A DNA stretch of 64,000 nt, taken from contig NZ_CP061739.1 in assembly GCF_014770435.1 (NCBI RefSeq), forward strand, positions 3,038,001 to 3,102,000, read 5' to 3'. This DNA is from Psychrobacter sp. 28M-43 (GTDB taxonomy: Bacteria; Pseudomonadota; Gammaproteobacteria; Pseudomonadales; Moraxellaceae). Of this stretch, positions 30,091-38,181 are shown one piece after another (positions within the stretch are counted from its first letter, which is position 1; each line of letters starts with the position of its first letter). The notes beneath the pieces were generated by a model, which saw nothing but the letters and a program-made list of their open reading frames with translations, was not told where the DNA came from and made no database searches. The position numbers and the translations under genes were made by a program.

Positions 30091-32733
30091 ATGAATAGTA
30101 AGCCCACAGACAACAAATCGCCTGATACAAAAAAGACTGATACCAGTATGCATCAAGAGTCCAGTTATCCTAGCAGCATCCTTAGTCAACTATTTACCCG
30201 TACTCTAGGTTTTCAAACTCTAGGCTCGCAAGCACTCAGCCGTAGCTGGTGGCAGCACTGGGTGTATCCCGTGTTGTTTCTACTGACCTTGACCTTGTCA
30301 CTTGCAACCTACTTGACTCTCGACTCGGTGCAGCAGTCTGTCGATAGTTATATCAATGACAATCAGCGCGCGCTCGTTGGTGGGGATCTAATCCTAAACA
30401 GTAAGCAAGACTGGCCAAGCGAAGTATTGTCACAGGTAGAAACTCTCCCTGATACACAGACGGTGTATGACTATCAGTTTAGCGCCATGCTGGTCAATGA
30501 TGAGCAAACCTTGCTTGCCAGCGTCAAAGCCGTCTCGCCGTCGTATCCCTTATACGGCACAGCGGAGCTTGCCTCAGGACAGCCGCTGTGGGATCAGCTA
30601 ACATCTGACAGTGTGATCGTCGCGCCAGAAGTGCTCAGTAGTCTACAGGCTGATGTCGGCGACCGTATCACCATTGGCGATGCGCAATTTACGATCAGTG
30701 ATGTACTGACCAAAGAGCCTGACCGTCCGCTGACTACCTTTGGTTTTGGTGGGCGTGTGTTGATGAAACAAGATGCACTTCCGGCGACCAACCTATTGGG
30801 TCAACGTAGCCGCATAAACTATCGTATTGAGATGGCAGGCGACCCAGAGCTGATAACCACGCAGCGTGATGCGCTTACAGATATCCTGACCAACTATCCT
30901 GATATCGAGCTATCTGATGCAGAGTCTGCAGATACCTCGGTCTCGCGCATCTCTGACAATGTGCTGATGTTCTTAAAACTGCTAGTCATCGCGGTGTTGC
31001 TACTATCTGCGGTCGCCATGTACGGTGTCATTAGTGCGTTTGTCAGTAAGCAGCAGTCCAATAATGCCATTCGATTGGCGTTAGGCGAGCCGCTTGGCTC
31101 ACTCAAACGTAGCTATTATCAGCTGCTTATTGTCACGACTGTCATTGCTTGTATCGCAGCGGTTGCCCTTAGTCTGGGCTTGCTCAAAATAGGTCAGCCG
31201 TATCTGGTGGCTATCTTGCCTGCTGATGTGGGTCTCGCCATCAATCCAATCAGTGCGATCAAAACTATTGTAATTGCTTTAGCCTTGACGCTACTGATTG
31301 CACAGCGTGGTTTAAGCGCACTTAACACGACCAAACCGGCTACCCTACTCAATCAAGGGGCGAGCACGCAAACGCAAAACTTGCCGTGGTATCGACGCGT
31401 GCCGCTACTATGGTATGGCTTGGTGCTGGCAGGACTGTATGCCTTCTTTGCCTATGAAGTTGGCTCACTGTCATTAGGCGCACAGCTATTGGGCGGCTTG
31501 ATTGGCTTTGTGGCGATATTTTGGCTATTGGCGCGTGGGTGGCTATGGCTGCTTAATAAGTTAGCGAGCAATACCAAGGTCAGTTGGATGCAGCGTATCG
31601 CCATTCATAACCTCGCGCGTAAAGGCAACCAATCAGCGTTGTTCTTTGTCACCTTATCGCTATCGGTGGCGGTGCTGACGCTTATCACCACGCTCAATCA
31701 CAGTATCAATGCGCAGTTTATCAATGCCTATCCTGAAGACGCGCCCAATCTGTTTTTACTCGATGTACAAAGCGAACAACATGACGATATTGATGCGATC
31801 ATTGAGGCACCCGTCACTTATTATCCCGTCATTCGTGCCCGTGTGGAGACGGCCAATAATGTGGCGGCAAAAGACATCGAGCCTGCTGATGGCTTTGATG
31901 ATCCTACGCGTGTCTTTAACTTAAGCTATGCAGATACGGTCATGGAGACCGAATACATCACTGAATCGCTCACAGATGACGCGCTATACACCCCTATCGA
32001 TGCGACAAATGAGCAAATCAAACCCTTGTCTATCTTGGACACTGCCGCCAGTATGCTTAATGTTGGCATGGGCGATCAGGTACGTTTTAACATTCAAGGT
32101 ATCGAAATCATCGGGCAGATTACCAGTATTCGCAAGCGCTATGAGCGTGGCCCAAGTCCGTATTTCTATTTCTTATTTGAGCCGTCCGTGCTGTCCGCTG
32201 CCCCGCAGATTCAGTTTGCCACTGCCCACGTATCAGAAGACGCCATTCCAGAACTACAAGGCAAACTGGTACGCGAGTTCCCTGCGGTAACCACAATCGA
32301 TGGGACTGCTATTGCGAAGCAAATCCAAGAGCTGGTGGTACAAATGAGCCGCTTAGTCTATGTGTTCACCTTGCTTGCCCTGCTCACTGGAGTCATGGTG
32401 CTGATCAGCTCGCTGTTGTCTACTTCGCAAGATCGTATGAAAGACAGCGCGTCATTTAGACTGCTCGGTATGCAAAAGCGCGACTTATATATGCTCAATA
32501 TCTTAGAGTTGGGCGTGCTTGGGATTAGCGCGGCGACGTTTGCCGTGGTCATTGCTAGCGTTGGTGCATGGGCGGCAATCACTCAGTGGTTTAATCTACA
32601 GTTTAGTGTGCCGTGGACGAGCTTGGCGATTGGCGGTGTGGCGTTAATCGTATTGCTGTTTGCCATTGCCGTTATTTATGTGAGATTAGTGATTGGACGC
32701 GGAATTATGGCAAGGGTCAGGGCGATGATTTAA
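30091..32733 (+). CDS. ybbP: ABC permease, YbbP (FtsX-domain) type
   Basis: An 880-residue inner-membrane permease with two FtsX-type units. The layout is a first helix (about 62-84), a long periplasmic domain, helices around 290-315, 345-365 and 390-410, a central membrane pair (about 440-490), a second periplasmic segment (about 540-740) and C-terminal helices around 755-780, 800-830 and 845-870. This matches YbbP (E. coli about 800 residues). It is the partner of the upstream ATPase. A terminator follows at 32761. Confidence 0.92.
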   Translation: MNSKPTDNKSPDTKKTDTSMHQESSYPSSILSQLFTRTLGFQTLGSQALSRSWWQHWVYPVLFLLTLTLSLATYLTLDSVQQSVDSYINDNQRALVGGDLILNSKQDWPSEVLSQVETLPDTQTVYDYQFSAMLVNDEQTLLASVKAVSPSYPLYGTAELASGQPLWDQLTSDSVIVAPEVLSSLQADVGDRITIGDAQFTISDVLTKEPDRPLTTFGFGGRVLMKQDALPATNLLGQRSRINYRIEMAGDPELITTQRDALTDILTNYPDIELSDAESADTSVSRISDNVLMFLKLLVIAVLLLSAVAMYGVISAFVSKQQSNNAIRLALGEPLGSLKRSYYQLLIVTTVIACIAAVALSLGLLKIGQPYLVAILPADVGLAINPISAIKTIVIALALTLLIAQRGLSALNTTKPATLLNQGASTQTQNLPWYRRVPLLWYGLVLAGLYAFFAYEVGSLSLGAQLLGGLIGFVAIFWLLARGWLWLLNKLASNTKVSWMQRIAIHNLARKGNQSALFFVTLSLSVAVLTLITTLNHSINAQFINAYPEDAPNLFLLDVQSEQHDDIDAIIEAPVTYYPVIRARVETANNVAAKDIEPADGFDDPTRVFNLSYADTVMETEYITESLTDDALYTPIDATNEQIKPLSILDTAASMLNVGMGDQVRFNIQGIEIIGQITSIRKRYERGPSPYFYFLFEPSVLSAAPQIQFATAHVSEDAIPELQGKLVREFPAVTTIDGTAIAKQIQELVVQMSRLVYVFTLLALLTGVMVLISSLLSTSQDRMKDSASFRLLGMQKRDLYMLNILELGVLGISAATFAVVIASVGAWAAITQWFNLQFSVPWTSLAIGGVALIVLLFAIAVIYVRLVIGRGIMARVRAMI

Positions 32734-32760
32734 TTGTATTAGATTTTGGCTTTATACAAG

Positions 32761-32785
32761 AAAACCTCTTTATAGGGTTTTTTTT
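32761..32785 (+). terminator. Terminator after ybbP
   Basis: A short hairpin (AAAACC with GGTTTT, nine-base loop) is followed by a T-run. It separates the tesA-ybbAP operon from the AT-rich gene that follows. Confidence 0.75.
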
Positions 32786-32873
32786 AATTCGCTATCATTT
32801 ATCAGTCGCAGTAACGTCATGTACTTGCTAATATCTATTAACATTTTATCACTCAATCTCTTAAAGGTACAAA

Positions 32874-35800
32874 ATGATAATCCAACCAGATTGGAGTGTA
32901 TTTAAAGCAAAATTCAGTGCTAATCCTCATGATACTTTCGAATGGTTTAGTTATTTATTATTTTGTCGAAAGTATGACCTTAAAGAAGGATGGTTTGGTT
33001 ATAAAAATCAGTCAGGAATAGAAAAACAACCACTTGTACTGGGTAATAAAGTTATAGGCTTTCAGTCCAAATTTTACGACGTACCTTTATCATCTAAAAA
33101 AGATGAATTGATTAAAACTTTAAATACTTCTAAAGAACATTATCCCAATTTAACTCACTTAATAATTTATACGAATCAATTATGGGGACAAGGTAATGCT
33201 AAAGATGGTAAATCTACAGCTCTTATAGCTATTGAAGAGCGCGCATCTGAATTAAATATTGAAATTATTTGGAATGAGCATTCATTCTTCGAATCAGAAT
33301 TTGTTTGTATAGAAAATAACGACTTAGCCAGACACTTTTTTACGAATGATGATTATCAAGGTTGGGATAGATTTAAGGATTGGTCTAGCACCCAAGCCAA
33401 TGTAGACTCTCTATATTTTACTGATAACGATATCAAGGTAGTACTACCTAATCAGAAAAGAGAAGATGCAAGTCACGTAATCAACGGCATAAACGCTATA
33501 CGTAACGAGTTAAAACAGCCTAAAACCTCTGTTCGGCTTGTAGGCTTATCTGGTGTCGGTAAAACTAGATTAGCTCAAGCACTATTTGACGACCGTATAG
33601 GTAAGAATCCACTAGACGTTAGAGAGGTTTGGTATTGTGATTATGGTGAATCACCATCCCCTCTTCCACTACACTTTATAGAAGATCTTAAACAGAAAAA
33701 TAAGAAATTTATCGTTATCGTTGATAACTGTGGGCGTGACCAACACGAAATATTAACTAAATCTATCACTAATGATAATAGTCAGATTTCTCTACTGACT
33801 ATCGAATATGATATTTCTGATGACTTACCCGAAAAAACGTCAGTTTTTAAACTTGAGCCAAATAGTCCTACTCTTGTTCAAAAGGTAATAGAACGCCATT
33901 ACCCTAAAATCAACAGTCCTATCCCACATGATATTGCGCAGTTAACAGGTGGCAATTATCGACTAGCTCTTGCTATCGCGTCGACTGTGAATAAGGTAGA
34001 TAATATTGCTATATTAAATGATAAACAATTATTTGAGCGTTTGTTTTATCAAAATGGCCAGATCAATGAAGAGAACTACAAGATTGCTCAAGTTTTCTCA
34101 TTGGTTTTTTCATTTAATATTAAGGATTTATCAGAGCCAAACTCAGAACTCCAAATATTGTCTGATATCGCTGAAGTATCACCTAGAACTGCAAAACAAG
34201 TCATTGAGCAATTAAAGGCTAAAGATGTTGTTCAACAACGTGGTGATTTTAGAGCCATACTACCTCATGTCTTAGCAAACCATCTCTCTAAACAAGCCTT
34301 ACAGTGGATTGATGATGATGAACTACACGACATATTTGTTAAAATGCCAAGTCGATTACAACGCTCGATGATTAAACGTTTAAGTTACTTACATGATAAT
34401 GAAGTAGTATGCAATTTTGTTCAAAAAATATTAACTAAGGAAGGATTTATAGGTAAAAAGCTTCTTGATGGATCTATCTCTGAAGAAGAAATTAATTACT
34501 TGCGACTACTATCCCATATTGAACCTAGAGCTATCTTAGAGTTAATAGAAGAACGTCATACTCGAGATAATCTCTTTTTAACTTCTGAAAACCCTCACAT
34601 CTCTAAAATCGAATATCTTATTAAACTTCTATCTTATAAATATGAGAACTTCAGTCAGTCTTTTAATTTACTATTAGCTATAGCAAAAAATAAGCCAAAA
34701 GACTCATCTACTCAAAGCACTCTAACTTCAATGTTTAGTCTTTATACATCTGAAAGCTTAGCTACATTGGATTTGAAAAAACCACTACTACAACATCTAT
34801 TCGATAATAAAGACTTTGAGATACTCTTAAACATATTAAAATCAGCAATAGATTTTAATTCAGGTGGTGTTTTATATTCAAACTTAGATAATGGTGAAAA
34901 AAGAGATGGATATGGCTATCACCCCAAGACTAATGGTGAAATTTGGAATTGGACTGAATTTTTGTTAAACCTTTTGAATCAACTCGATATTTTGGGGTAT
35001 AAAGAAGCTAAAGAGATTTTTACCAGTCAGCTAAAGCCACTCATTCGAAGTTGTTATCAAGGTGGGTTTATGGATAGATATGTACTAGATTTCCATAGTA
35101 GGAAACCGTTTATCAAAGCCTCAATTGCCTTGAATGAGCTTATTTCATATGATTATGAAGAATTACAAAGCAATCACCCTCAAACCCTTAAAAACTTACA
35201 GAATTTAATTATTACGCTTCAACCTAAACTAGGTGAATTAGAACAGTTAATTCAGCACTATATACTGATAGGTGGTTTTGAGTTAGCAAGGTATCAAAGA
35301 GAGGCTGAAAAAAGATTAAGCCTTAAAGTTCCTAACTTTGATAGTTATGATGAATTTATTCAATATATTTCTAAAGAATTAATGAACAGTAATGACTTGC
35401 GCTCCTGTCTTGCACTATTACTAAGTAGTGATAACCCACACCTCAAATATACTGGCATAGTAATCTATCCAAAAATAGTAGAAAACAGCAATTTAAATGA
35501 CGTCTTACAGGGACTGACGGACTTGTCAATAAGTAGGCGTCCTTACTTATTACTAGGCTTGTTAAAGGAATTGAAAAACAACTCCCTTAATGACTATAAA
35601 TCAACTATCTTAGAGTTAGTGAAATCAGATGAATTTAAGCAAGTCGTACCTTGGTTAACTTTTGAGCTAAGTCAAACAGATGACGACTTTGACTTTCTGT
35701 GTGAATTGTTAGACTTAAAACTAGATATTGATTTTTACGACTATGCTTGGATTTCTGTAAAAAAAGAACGTGGGGAAATATCATCAGAGCAATTCGAAAA

Positions 35801-36608
35801 AGTTTTTGATTCTTTGATCCAGAATAGTTATGAAATTGCTATTGATCAAACCTTTCAACTTGAATCAACCTACATGAAAAGCCTGTCAGATAAATATATT
35901 TCTCCCTTTTTAAAACGTGTACCTTCAATCTATAGTAGTCATAAAACCTTTGACATAGAGGGTATGCTTAAGCTTTTACTCTCTAACAATAAGAGTATTG
36001 AAAGAGCTTTTGACGTATTCATTGAGCTATTTAACTCAGAAAAATATTTATCATTAAACCAAGAAAACCAAACTTTTGTAGCTTTAAAAGCTCTATTAAA
36101 AACTGATACTAAGCAGTTTATCAAAAGATTTGTAGAGAATGGATATCTAATATTCAATTTTATATCGTGGGGCCACTCAGATTTGCTATTTTATGCTGAA
36201 GAAAGTGCAGTAACTGATTGGATAAGTGAAGATGAGCAAGTAAGGATAGATTTTTGGATTAGATACGCGAATTTATTAAGGATTGAAGATCAAATAGGAA
36301 TTAGAAAATTCCATTGGAGTCACTTAATAGTTTATCTAATTGATAAGAGCAACAACCCTGAGTCTGTTATAGATGCAGTGTTAGCCCATAATGTTTATGA
36401 AATACACAGTTATACAGGTAGTTACTCCAATGGCATGCGAGATCAACTTGATGTCTTCGACTCACTTAAAGAACATTTAATTAAGAATAGCTTAGAAAAG
36501 TATATTCTATATTTAGAAATTAAACACACTGAATGGTTAGAGGCTATTAAAGCTCAAGAGTTAAAAGAAGCTGAAAAAAGGAAAAAAGACGAAGGTTTTG
36601 ATTATTAG
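32874..36608 (+). CDS. Avs-like STAND NTPase with nuclease-like N-terminus (candidate anti-phage protein)
   Basis: A 1,244-residue protein. Residues 1-145 resemble a PD-(D/E)XK nuclease: E23 in the FEWF helix, E50 in GIEKQP, and Q64/K66 in GFQSK match the usual E...(D/E)...QxK order. Residues 195-385 form a P-loop NTPase with Walker A GLSGVGKT (224-231), Walker B FIVIVDN (279-285, D284) and a sensor-like GGNYRLAL (359-366). A winged-helix-like region spans about 390-475. About 480-1215 is helical repeat-like, and the C-terminus is a Lys/Glu-rich helix. This is the layout of STAND defence proteins such as Avs, in which a nuclease is joined to a sensor that recognises phage proteins. AAAGG seven bases before the ATG supports the start. 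DNA is much AT-richer than neighbours (18 of 60 G+C at 35581-35640). Assignment to a named Avs type is not possible here. Confidence 0.75.
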   Translation: MIIQPDWSVFKAKFSANPHDTFEWFSYLLFCRKYDLKEGWFGYKNQSGIEKQPLVLGNKVIGFQSKFYDVPLSSKKDELIKTLNTSKEHYPNLTHLIIYTNQLWGQGNAKDGKSTALIAIEERASELNIEIIWNEHSFFESEFVCIENNDLARHFFTNDDYQGWDRFKDWSSTQANVDSLYFTDNDIKVVLPNQKREDASHVINGINAIRNELKQPKTSVRLVGLSGVGKTRLAQALFDDRIGKNPLDVREVWYCDYGESPSPLPLHFIEDLKQKNKKFIVIVDNCGRDQHEILTKSITNDNSQISLLTIEYDISDDLPEKTSVFKLEPNSPTLVQKVIERHYPKINSPIPHDIAQLTGGNYRLALAIASTVNKVDNIAILNDKQLFERLFYQNGQINEENYKIAQVFSLVFSFNIKDLSEPNSELQILSDIAEVSPRTAKQVIEQLKAKDVVQQRGDFRAILPHVLANHLSKQALQWIDDDELHDIFVKMPSRLQRSMIKRLSYLHDNEVVCNFVQKILTKEGFIGKKLLDGSISEEEINYLRLLSHIEPRAILELIEERHTRDNLFLTSENPHISKIEYLIKLLSYKYENFSQSFNLLLAIAKNKPKDSSTQSTLTSMFSLYTSESLATLDLKKPLLQHLFDNKDFEILLNILKSAIDFNSGGVLYSNLDNGEKRDGYGYHPKTNGEIWNWTEFLLNLLNQLDILGYKEAKEIFTSQLKPLIRSCYQGGFMDRYVLDFHSRKPFIKASIALNELISYDYEELQSNHPQTLKNLQNLIITLQPKLGELEQLIQHYILIGGFELARYQREAEKRLSLKVPNFDSYDEFIQYISKELMNSNDLRSCLALLLSSDNPHLKYTGIVIYPKIVENSNLNDVLQGLTDLSISRRPYLLLGLLKELKNNSLNDYKSTILELVKSDEFKQVVPWLTFELSQTDDDFDFLCELLDLKLDIDFYDYAWISVKKERGEISSEQFEKVFDSLIQNSYEIAIDQTFQLESTYMKSLSDKYISPFLKRVPSIYSSHKTFDIEGMLKLLLSNNKSIERAFDVFIELFNSEKYLSLNQENQTFVALKALLKTDTKQFIKRFVENGYLIFNFISWGHSDLLFYAEESAVTDWISEDEQVRIDFWIRYANLLRIEDQIGIRKFHWSHLIVYLIDKSNNPESVIDAVLAHNVYEIHSYTGSYSNGMRDQLDVFDSLKEHLIKNSLEKYILYLEIKHTEWLEAIKAQELKEAEKRKKDEGFDY

Positions 36609-36672
36609 ACAATTGCAATAAATACGTTGTACTTCTTTTATCCATCTAAAGCCTTATTAAGCTCCTCAAAAC

Positions 36673-36706
36673 AAAAAGTCTTCTATCCATACAGAGGACG
36701 TTTTTG
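36673..36706 (+). terminator. Terminator after the Avs-like gene
   Basis: An imperfect hairpin has arms GTCTTCT and AGAGGAC around seven to eight bases, A-runs before and T5 after. It closes the single-gene AT-rich insert. Confidence 0.7.
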
Positions 36707-36787
36707 CTTCATTCAATGTATCAGAATATAAACCAATATCAGCCATGCAGTTTGCTTATTTATTGGGGGGATTACCTAGCCCTCATT

Positions 36788-36796
36788 TGCTATACT
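36788..36796 (+). promoter_or_regulatory. Extended -10 promoter candidate for avtA
   Basis: TGCTATACT lies 63 bp before the avtA ATG. It matches the extended -10 form also seen upstream of nqrM. Confidence 0.5.
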
Positions 36797-36858
36797 AGCC
36801 TAATTTTTATCAATCAAATTCCTTCTTATAACACCCTCCCAAACAGCATGGTAGCCTT

Positions 36859-38181
36859 ATGAAATTCTCAAAGTTCGGTCAAAAATTCACCCAGCCTACT
36901 GGCATCTCACAATTGATGGATGATCTGGGCGACGCGCTAAAAAGCGATCAGCCAGTCAACATGCTAGGCGGTGGTAACCCTGCCAAAATTGATGCCGTCA
37001 ATGAGCTGTTTTTGGAGACCTATAAAGCGCTGGGCGTTGATAACGATACAGGCGTACCCAATAGCAGCGCGATTATCAGCATGGCGAACTACTCCAATCC
37101 GCAAGGCGATGCCGCCTTTATCGATGCGCTCGTTGGCTTCTTTAACCGTCATTATGATTGGAACCTCACTTCAGAAAATATCGCTCTGACCAATGGCTCA
37201 CAGAATGCGTTTTTCTATCTGTTTAATCTATTTGGCGGTGCGTTCACAGATGAGCAGAACGAATCTGTCGATAAGTCCATTCTACTGCCATTGACCCCTG
37301 AGTATATTGGCTATAGTGATGTGCATGTGGAAGGTCAGCATTTCACCGCCGTATTACCGCATATCGATGAAGTGACGCATGATGGCGAAGAAGGCTTCTT
37401 TAAATATCGTGTGGATTTTGACGCGTTAGAGAACTTGCCAGCGTTAAAGGAAGGTCGTATCGGCGCGATTTGCTGCTCACGTCCGACCAATCCAACTGGT
37501 AATGTGCTAACTGATGACGAAATGGCGCATTTGGCTGAGATTGCCAAACGCTATGACATACCGCTGATTATCGATAACGCCTACGGTATGCCCTTCCCCA
37601 ATATCATCTACTCTGACGCGCACCTGAATTGGGATAACAATACGATTCTATGCTTTAGCCTGTCGAAGATTGGTTTGCCTGGTATGCGTACGGGTATTAT
37701 TGTGGCCGACGCCAAAGTAATCGAAGCGGTTAGCGCGATGAATGCCGTGGTCAATCTAGCACCGACACGCTTTGGTGCAGCGATTGCCACGCCATTGGTA
37801 GAAAACGACCGTATCAAGCAGTTATCTGATAACGACATCAAGCCGTTTTATCAAAAGCAGGCCACCCTTGCCGTTAAGCTGTTAAAAGAAGCCTTGGGCA
37901 ACTATCCGTTGGTCATTCATAAACCTGAAGGCGCGATATTCTTATGGTTATGGTTTAAAGACTTGCCGATTAGCACGCTGGATCTATACGAGCGCCTAAA
38001 AGAAAAAGGCACGCTTATTGTACCAAGTGAGTACTTCTTCCCTGGTGTCGATGTTAGCGATTATCAGCATGCGCACGAGTGTATCCGCATGAGTATCGCC
38101 GCCGATGAGCAGACGCTAACTGATGGTATCAAAGCCATCGGTGAAGTCGTACGTGAGCTTTATGATGAAGCCGAAAAATAA
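36859..38181 (+). CDS. avtA: Valine--pyruvate aminotransferase
   Basis: A fold-type I PLP aminotransferase that moves amino groups among alanine, valine and 2-aminobutyrate. The 440 residues match AvtA: an N-terminal FSKFGQKFTQPTGI block, GGGNPA (about 37-42), the NGSQNAFFYLFNLF block (about 111-124) and the SLSKIGLPG motif with PLP lysine K270. These are close to E. coli AvtA. The gene is preceded by an extended -10 and followed by a terminator. Confidence 0.95.
   Translation: MKFSKFGQKFTQPTGISQLMDDLGDALKSDQPVNMLGGGNPAKIDAVNELFLETYKALGVDNDTGVPNSSAIISMANYSNPQGDAAFIDALVGFFNRHYDWNLTSENIALTNGSQNAFFYLFNLFGGAFTDEQNESVDKSILLPLTPEYIGYSDVHVEGQHFTAVLPHIDEVTHDGEEGFFKYRVDFDALENLPALKEGRIGAICCSRPTNPTGNVLTDDEMAHLAEIAKRYDIPLIIDNAYGMPFPNIIYSDAHLNWDNNTILCFSLSKIGLPGMRTGIIVADAKVIEAVSAMNAVVNLAPTRFGAAIATPLVENDRIKQLSDNDIKPFYQKQATLAVKLLKEALGNYPLVIHKPEGAIFLWLWFKDLPISTLDLYERLKEKGTLIVPSEYFFPGVDVSDYQHAHECIRMSIAADEQTLTDGIKAIGEVVRELYDEAEK

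Follow-up and report, generated by a model that had tools for sequence, protein, structure and literature searches.

The window analysed here, a 64,000-nucleotide stretch of the Psychrobacter sp. 28M-43 genome (3.1 Mb, one contig; NZ_CP061739.1, positions 3,038,001 to 3,102,000), carries a gene at 32874..36608 whose 1244-residue product is, as judged from its family matches, a natural chimera: its head is of Avs4 type and its body of PD-lambda-4 type, both of them catalogued defence families. The Avs4 and PD-Lambda-4_A models of PADLOC together tile the protein: the former matches residues 3–246 (E 4.2e-68) and the latter covers the body (E 2.8e-114, best stretch 160–786, starting at model position 178). 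The gene is a single intact open reading frame (ORF) on the forward strand with an ATG start and no internal stops, and stops occur throughout frame 1 of the reverse strand over the same stretch. The observed architecture, motifs, predicted folds, family matches, head swaps and hotspot setting suggest that the product is quite probably a single-gene anti-phage STAND sensor-nuclease, which would probably act by abortive infection.

Domain architecture and family assignment

The head is predicted to be an Avs4-type Mrr/PD-(D/E)XK nuclease, an assignment supported by both sequence and profile comparison. Solved Avs4 (PDB entry 8dgf) was the only convincing sequence match among solved structures (E 7e-43 over residues 3–242), with E50 and Q-S-K identical in the alignment, and hhalign comparison of the head with Avs4 heads gave a probability of 99.9 (E 5.9e-32). 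The core signature of PD-(D/E)XK nucleases, E50 and Q64-x-K66, is found in all 116 heads of this type (near-copies included) and is common to solved Avs4. Since these residues and E23 are invariant in a 41-row alignment as well as in the 116 heads, the head motifs are not attributable to chance; the invariance of E23 is partly circular, most alignment rows having been picked by a pattern that contains it, while E50, Q64 and K66 are free of this dependence.

The presence of a P-loop, a Walker B motif, an NB-ARC/NACHT-like fold and a winged helix, placed between an effector and a repeat sensor, supports assignment of the modelled NTPase as a STAND NTPase of NB-ARC-like type. The GGNYRLAL block presumably corresponds to GLPLA, a motif of NB-ARC proteins. 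Over model residues 2–480 the nearest solved fold is Avs4 8dgf. The C-terminal half is likewise supported, from its model, as a helical-repeat sensor: in an AF2 prediction of residues 441–1244 (pLDDT 86.4, pTM 0.70) the elements of at least three residues past residue 480 are helices and one hairpin only, and a fold search with the sensor returned only generic solenoids, for example condensin among HEAT solenoids in DNA-bound complexes. A Pfam scan of the protein gave nothing above cut-off, and hhalign comparison of the body with the Avs4 body gave a probability of 0.5, the Avs4 profile being shallow (four closely related rows).

A first-pass annotation made from the sequence alone had located the E23/E50/Q64-K66 pattern, Walker A at 224–231, Walker B with D284 and the GGNYRLAL block (now placed at 359–366), all of which proved correct. 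Its reading of a PD-(D/E)XK-like nuclease head is borne out and narrowed to the Avs4 Mrr type by PADLOC, 8dgf and hhalign, and that of a Walker-motif STAND NTPase is corroborated by the motifs and the NB-ARC-like fold. The profile searches and the overlay on solved Avs structures that it had proposed returned the two PADLOC matches given above and 8dgf as the nearest fold over model residues 2–480. Its description of the last ∼760 residues as a motif-free, helix-rich C-terminus stands as regards the helices but not the lack of a match, since PD-Lambda-4_A covers the body, with its best stretch at 160–786; by the same token, the statement that the C-terminal part fits no named Avs type gives way to a body of PD-Lambda-4_A type. 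The label `Avs-like' holds for the head and the domain order but not for Avs4 membership.

The window protein has the same order of head, NTPase and helical sensor as Avs4 (AVAST type 4), and the Mrr-type heads of the two are homologous and agree in E50 and QxK. However, Avs4 models have ∼1570–1580 positions compared with 1244 residues here, and the window sensor shows no match to that of Avs4, so that the trigger is not predictable from that of Avs4 (portal). Avs4 itself was rejected as an assignment on the grounds of a sub-cut-off NCBIfam score and a match that ends at residue 246. True Avs4 genes occur in four of the 105 Psychrobacter genomes (L157–L160; 1935–2007 bits on the NCBIfam Avs4 model), and the head of one of these, L157, is 32% identical to the window head.

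The likeness to PD-lambda-4 lies in the NTPase and the first part of the sensor, which match PD-Lambda-4_A. Relatives P0116, P0118 and P0119 match this model end to end but bear another PD-(D/E)XK-like head (GGxQxAxDGGxD and FQxK, assigned by eye), which has no similarity to the window head detectable by blastp or hhalign. Two further differences are that the window genome lacks PD-Lambda-4_B and that the C-terminal part of the window sensor is far diverged. The term PD-lambda-4 was not found in the available part of the main text of PMC9519451. The NB-ARC immune NTPases (plant NRC1 and Apaf-1) differ in that the window protein has a nuclease head and neither a leucine-rich-repeat or WD40 sensor nor a Pfam match. 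Feature coordinates are collected in Table 1.

Table 1. Features of the gene and its surroundings in window coordinates.
Feature	Position	Strand	Basis
Whole gene, STAND sensor-nuclease (predicted), Avs4-type head and PD-lambda-4-type body	32874..36608	+	ORF, translation; PADLOC, NCBIfam and PDB matches; G+C content
Head, predicted Avs4-type Mrr/PD-(D/E)XK nuclease, residues 1–160	32874..33353	+	PADLOC, PDB 8dgf, hhalign
E23, conserved head residue	32940..32942	+	Invariant in 41 rows and 116/116 heads, partly by construction
E50, predicted catalytic acid	33021..33023	+	116/116 heads; identical in aligned solved Avs4
Q64-S65-K66, predicted (D/E/Q)xK motif	33063..33071	+	Q64 and K66 in 116/116 heads; QSK in aligned solved Avs4
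Head–body junction, start of conserved GW.....W motif, residues 163–170	33360..33383	+	G163, W164 and W170 invariant (41 rows)
STAND NTPase (NB-ARC-like) and winged-helix region, residues 161–480	33354..34313	+	
Walker A GLSGVGKT, residues 224–231	33543..33566	+	G224 and S226–T231 invariant (41-row alignment)
Walker B VDNC, residues 283–286 (D284)	33720..33731	+	D284, N285 and C286 invariant (41-row alignment)
GGNYRLAL, residues 359–366	33948..33971	+	G360, N361 and R363 invariant (41-row alignment)
Predicted sensor, residues 481–1244, HEAT/importin-like alpha-solenoid, beta-hairpin at ∼1135–1148	34314..36605	+	AF2 model; generic solenoid matches; dN/dS
Terminator-like stem-loop 3' of gene	36678..36699	+	Consensus scan; weak (2 observed in region, 2.2 expected by chance)
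Inserted segment, approximate	32734..36785		By-eye comparison with seven empty sites
Left flank, FtsX-like permease	30091..32733	+	Pfam FtsX/MacB_PCD; left flank of 82 compared sites
Right flank, class I/II aminotransferase	36859..38181	+	Pfam Aminotran_1_2; matched in 105/105 genus genomes

Exchange of heads on a shared body

A protein search gave at least 360 relatives, and among the best 120 of 360 the near relatives share the window head (the named ones being from Psychrobacter and Acinetobacter) and the remoter ones retain the body and differ in head. A tally of 318 listed records gave 185 canonical PD-lambda-4 nuclease heads, 116 of Avs4 type, six alpha/beta-hydrolase-like, two membrane-like and nine truncated; it is not a census, drawing on the best 120 of at least 360 and of at least 3495 matches with near-copies included and some genomes entered twice. 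Heads were labelled by sequence patterns, and 12 left open by these were set by eye.

In a tree of 69 bodies those that bear an Avs4-type head occupy two distinct positions, and their union in a single clade was rejected under the model used (AU p 2.1e-13). The two body trees comprised 70 and 69 hand-chosen rows over the first 640 body residues, with the head excluded; L005 was left out of the second owing to its very long branch. In the head tree, heads of the Psychrobacter/Acinetobacter branch form one group (40 rows), and a second group (four rows) lies beside a true Avs4 head in an arrangement that the tree, with only three true Avs4 heads included, does not resolve.

Exchange of the effector at one junction is evident from the pair P0112 and L083, because their bodies are 84.8% identical over 1085 residues, their heads are without any match and strong identity begins at the GW.....W motif at the body start; its functional meaning is taken up below as a proposal. 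P0115 and L083, the latter from a Campylobacteraceae metagenome-assembled genome, both combine this body with a short head that has hydrophobic, probably membrane-spanning stretches (assigned by eye) and no nuclease. The same body is joined to an alpha/beta-hydrolase-like head of ∼215–283 residues (HGLGG, GxSxGG) in L084, L095, L104, L127, L148 and L005, although the body of L005 (Psychrobacter, G035) has just 22% identity and cannot be placed with certainty.

The variety of heads bears on a different interpretation of the window protein as a type IV restriction-like enzyme, in which modified or foreign DNA would be the direct target of the Mrr-type head and the NTPase, with the solenoid serving as a scaffold or DNA-binding part. 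The Mrr group is named among modification-dependent restriction types in the available part of one source (PMC10286901), and HEAT solenoids of DNA-bound complexes are, as noted, among the generic fold matches; however, the NTPase resembles NB-ARC/STAND proteins and has its nearest fold in Avs4, and a body that also bears alpha/beta-hydrolase-like and membrane-like heads is hard to square with one that feeds DNA to a nuclease. A type IV-like enzyme is thus judged unlikely.

For the anti-phage sensor-nuclease, a broader proposal is favoured with moderate confidence. The PD-lambda-4-type body would be a chassis among bacterial NLR-like proteins that has repeatedly taken unrelated heads (two nucleases, an alpha/beta hydrolase and a membrane head) at the GW.....W motif near residue 163, and the Moraxellaceae branch, with its Avs4 head and fast-changing sensor, would be an unnamed Avs type that senses a phage protein with which no Avs has so far been connected. 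If so, a bacterial NLR-like receptor could swap its effector at one short junction while remaining unchanged itself. Natural pairs that differ mainly in the head, such as P0112 and L083, make indifference of the receptor to the killing domain testable with natural proteins.

The permease–aminotransferase junction

The gene has the space between the permease and the aminotransferase to itself, with no recombinase beside it, and its G+C content (32.6%) is well below that of either flank (49.8% on the left and 47.2% on the right). At the other loci of the body family no widely shared neighbour was found; the largest cluster, response-regulator-like, is present in five loci and is not adjacent. 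If functional, the protein works as a single gene, in agreement with the single-gene layout of the first-pass annotation. That annotation had also proposed comparing the neighbourhood in related genomes, and this comparison revealed a variable junction rich in defence genes.

The junction (window 32734–36858; loci L001–L076 and L197–L239) was compared in 88 of the 105 genus genomes, namely the window, seven empty sites from the initial set of loci and a further 80 regions; six (L052, L059, L073, L231, L238 and L240) were dropped because the flanks were not beside each other or a contig ended, leaving 82. Sixteen of these sites are empty, with gaps of 107–225 bases, and 66 are occupied, with gaps of 1.2–5.8 kb that hold one to five ORFs and amount to 57 different cargo sets (counting ORFs of at least 90 residues only). 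The window differs from the empty sites from the permease stop on the left up to a shared TTTGCTATACTA on the right. Among the 82 sites, the window gene is found at this junction only in the window and in Psychrobacter sp. UBA3480 (91% identity). The neighbouring junctions, used as controls, are mostly short: gaps below 300 bases were observed in 72 of 73 loci for lipase–ABC and 68 of 73 for ABC–permease, compared with nine of 74 for permease–aminotransferase. Some of the cargo in remoter species is a recurring resident gene of a ∼315-residue family (seven members), so that not all 66 occupied sites are recent arrivals.

The 47 longest cargo proteins were selected, one per family and excluding the window gene, and 30 were scanned against PADLOC (20 from the top of the list, with two departures from its order, and ten longer ones picked by hand). 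Matches below 1e-15 were obtained for 15 of the 30: Drt8, Drt2, Drt3b, another reverse transcriptase, AbiU, LmuB, ThsA, a CBASS cyclase, a PtuA-like ATPase, two PD-T4-6-like kinases, RmrA, HEC-05/PDC-M55C, a type II methyltransferase and the model `beta', the kinase and methyltransferase matches being generic. Among ten ordinary gene neighbours used as a control, only one matched at this level, through a generic ABC ATPase match. Pfam domains in 68 cargo proteins include reverse transcriptases, kinases, HEPN, the ThsA macro domain and CBASS-type domains, and an integrase core in one protein. The hotspot setting speaks strongly, if circumstantially, for a role in defence.

According to the available part of one source (PMC10250203), the core defence hotspots of Pseudomonas aeruginosa are fixed chromosomal spots with changing defence cargo. 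The Psychrobacter junction resembles them as a fixed spot with changing cargo but differs in its gap (1.2–5.8 kb, one to five ORFs), its permease–aminotransferase location and the lack of a recombinase by the window gene. No report on this hotspot was found in the open-access literature, coverage of which was partial.

Proposed function, selection and spread

The nucleotide cycle, oligomerization, DNA cutting, cell death and phage trigger proposed here would follow those of Avs4 and other STAND proteins. The available parts of two sources (PMC12724215, PMC12931631) describe Avs proteins in which the C-terminus senses phage packaging proteins and ATP-dependent oligomerization activates the N-terminal effector. 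By analogy, the resting protein would be monomeric and ADP-bound, and its C-terminal alpha-solenoid (481–1244) may bind a phage-made protein. Binding would let the NB-ARC-like NTPase (161–480) take ATP and oligomerize, whereupon the clustered Avs4-type Mrr/PD-(D/E)XK heads (1–160) could cleave double-stranded DNA and block the phage, a response that the cell would probably not survive. The anti-phage sensor-nuclease suggested by the first-pass annotation is thus retained as regards architecture and defence setting; its `undescribed branch' is not, both halves of the protein being nameable.

The same logic of sensor, switch and nuclease might instead be directed against plasmids or other mobile DNA; the setting and the nuclease head would suit this no less well, and the sequence names no invader. 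Since Avs relatives respond to phage proteins (PMC12931631 and PMC12724215, in the parts available) and a full-length relative itself resides on a Moraxella plasmid, this is judged quite unlikely.

Comparison with P. phenylpyruvicus gives ratios of nonsynonymous to synonymous substitution (dN/dS) of 0.08 for the head, 0.09 for the NTPase and 0.19 and 0.22 for the two sensor halves, with dS at 1.0–1.3 and so near saturation; amino-acid identity falls from 84% in the head to 58% in the last part of the sensor. Compared with UBA3480 (L077), dN/dS is 0.10 for the head, 0.61 for the NTPase and 0.30 and 0.26 for the sensor halves. The sensor ratios are two to three times those of the head. By these values the gene is kept under selection and its sensor is the part whose amino-acid sequence changes most quickly. 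An arms-race receptor is expected to behave in this way, although a sensor under relaxed constraint would give a similar picture. Because dS relative to UBA3480 jumps from 0.03–0.05 in the head and NTPase to 0.18–0.23 in the sensor, part of the gene appears to have been exchanged between alleles in a mosaic-like manner. A decaying gene in a variable spot, as non-functional or purely selfish cargo, would accord with the relative in Psychrobacter sp. TAE2020, which lies in two pieces, but is judged highly improbable in view of the intact 1244-codon frame, the dN/dS of 0.08–0.22 in every domain relative to P. phenylpyruvicus (with dS near saturation) and the invariance of the catalytic residues in 116/116 heads.

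Several observations weigh against the anti-phage sensor-nuclease of chimeric origin. The NCBIfam Avs4 equivalog scores 203.5 bits compared with a cut-off of 1500, over residues 6–246 only, and the best PD-Lambda-4_A match ends at residue 786, leaving the window sensor well removed from its catalogued counterpart. Over the whole model, the match to the 8dgf fold has a TMq of 0.40 and a root-mean-square deviation of 11–12.6, and model confidence is lowest at residues 44–48, just before E50. PD-Lambda-4_B (PADLOC model PDLC03992) has no match in the window's own genome. The NTPase dN/dS of 0.61 relative to UBA3480 exceeds that of the sensor, although it rests on few changes (dN 0.020, dS 0.033). 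Fifteen of the 30 cargo representatives have no PADLOC match below 1e-15, so that the hotspot is not purely defensive on present evidence; for the same reason, the junction is a place to seek new small defence systems, these 15 being candidate members of new defence families. Neither this head–body combination nor an experiment on such a protein was found in the open-access literature, the coverage of which was partial and does not establish absence in print.

An Avs4 profile search of the genus, limited to four scored candidates per listed genome, located this head (E < 1e-50) in an open frame of 749–1253 residues in at least five of the 105 genomes, among them that of the window and TAE2020. 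In P. phenylpyruvicus the gene also lies 3' of the permease, but the aminotransferase does not follow. The two pieces in TAE2020 (G029; L003/L080 and L006) are ∼80 kb apart and are 85% and 53% identical to P0080; the second may derive from another allele. Weak Avs4-head matches (E 2.6e-5 to 5.9e-5) occur in other frames of 1360–1499 residues (G094:C13:227929-228420, G109:C9:5097-5453 and G073:C1:2678677-2678874), which perhaps represent additional bodies bearing a remote relative of this head.

A search of a phage collection found no relative; matches were present in six viral contigs and in 69 plasmid records, one of the latter over at least 80% of the protein. The Moraxella osloensis plasmid pSKB0120-2 (L220) carries a full-length relative with 37% identity. 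It lies in a same-strand run with proteins of 397, 709, 1586 and 290 residues, none of which matches PADLOC below 1e-10.

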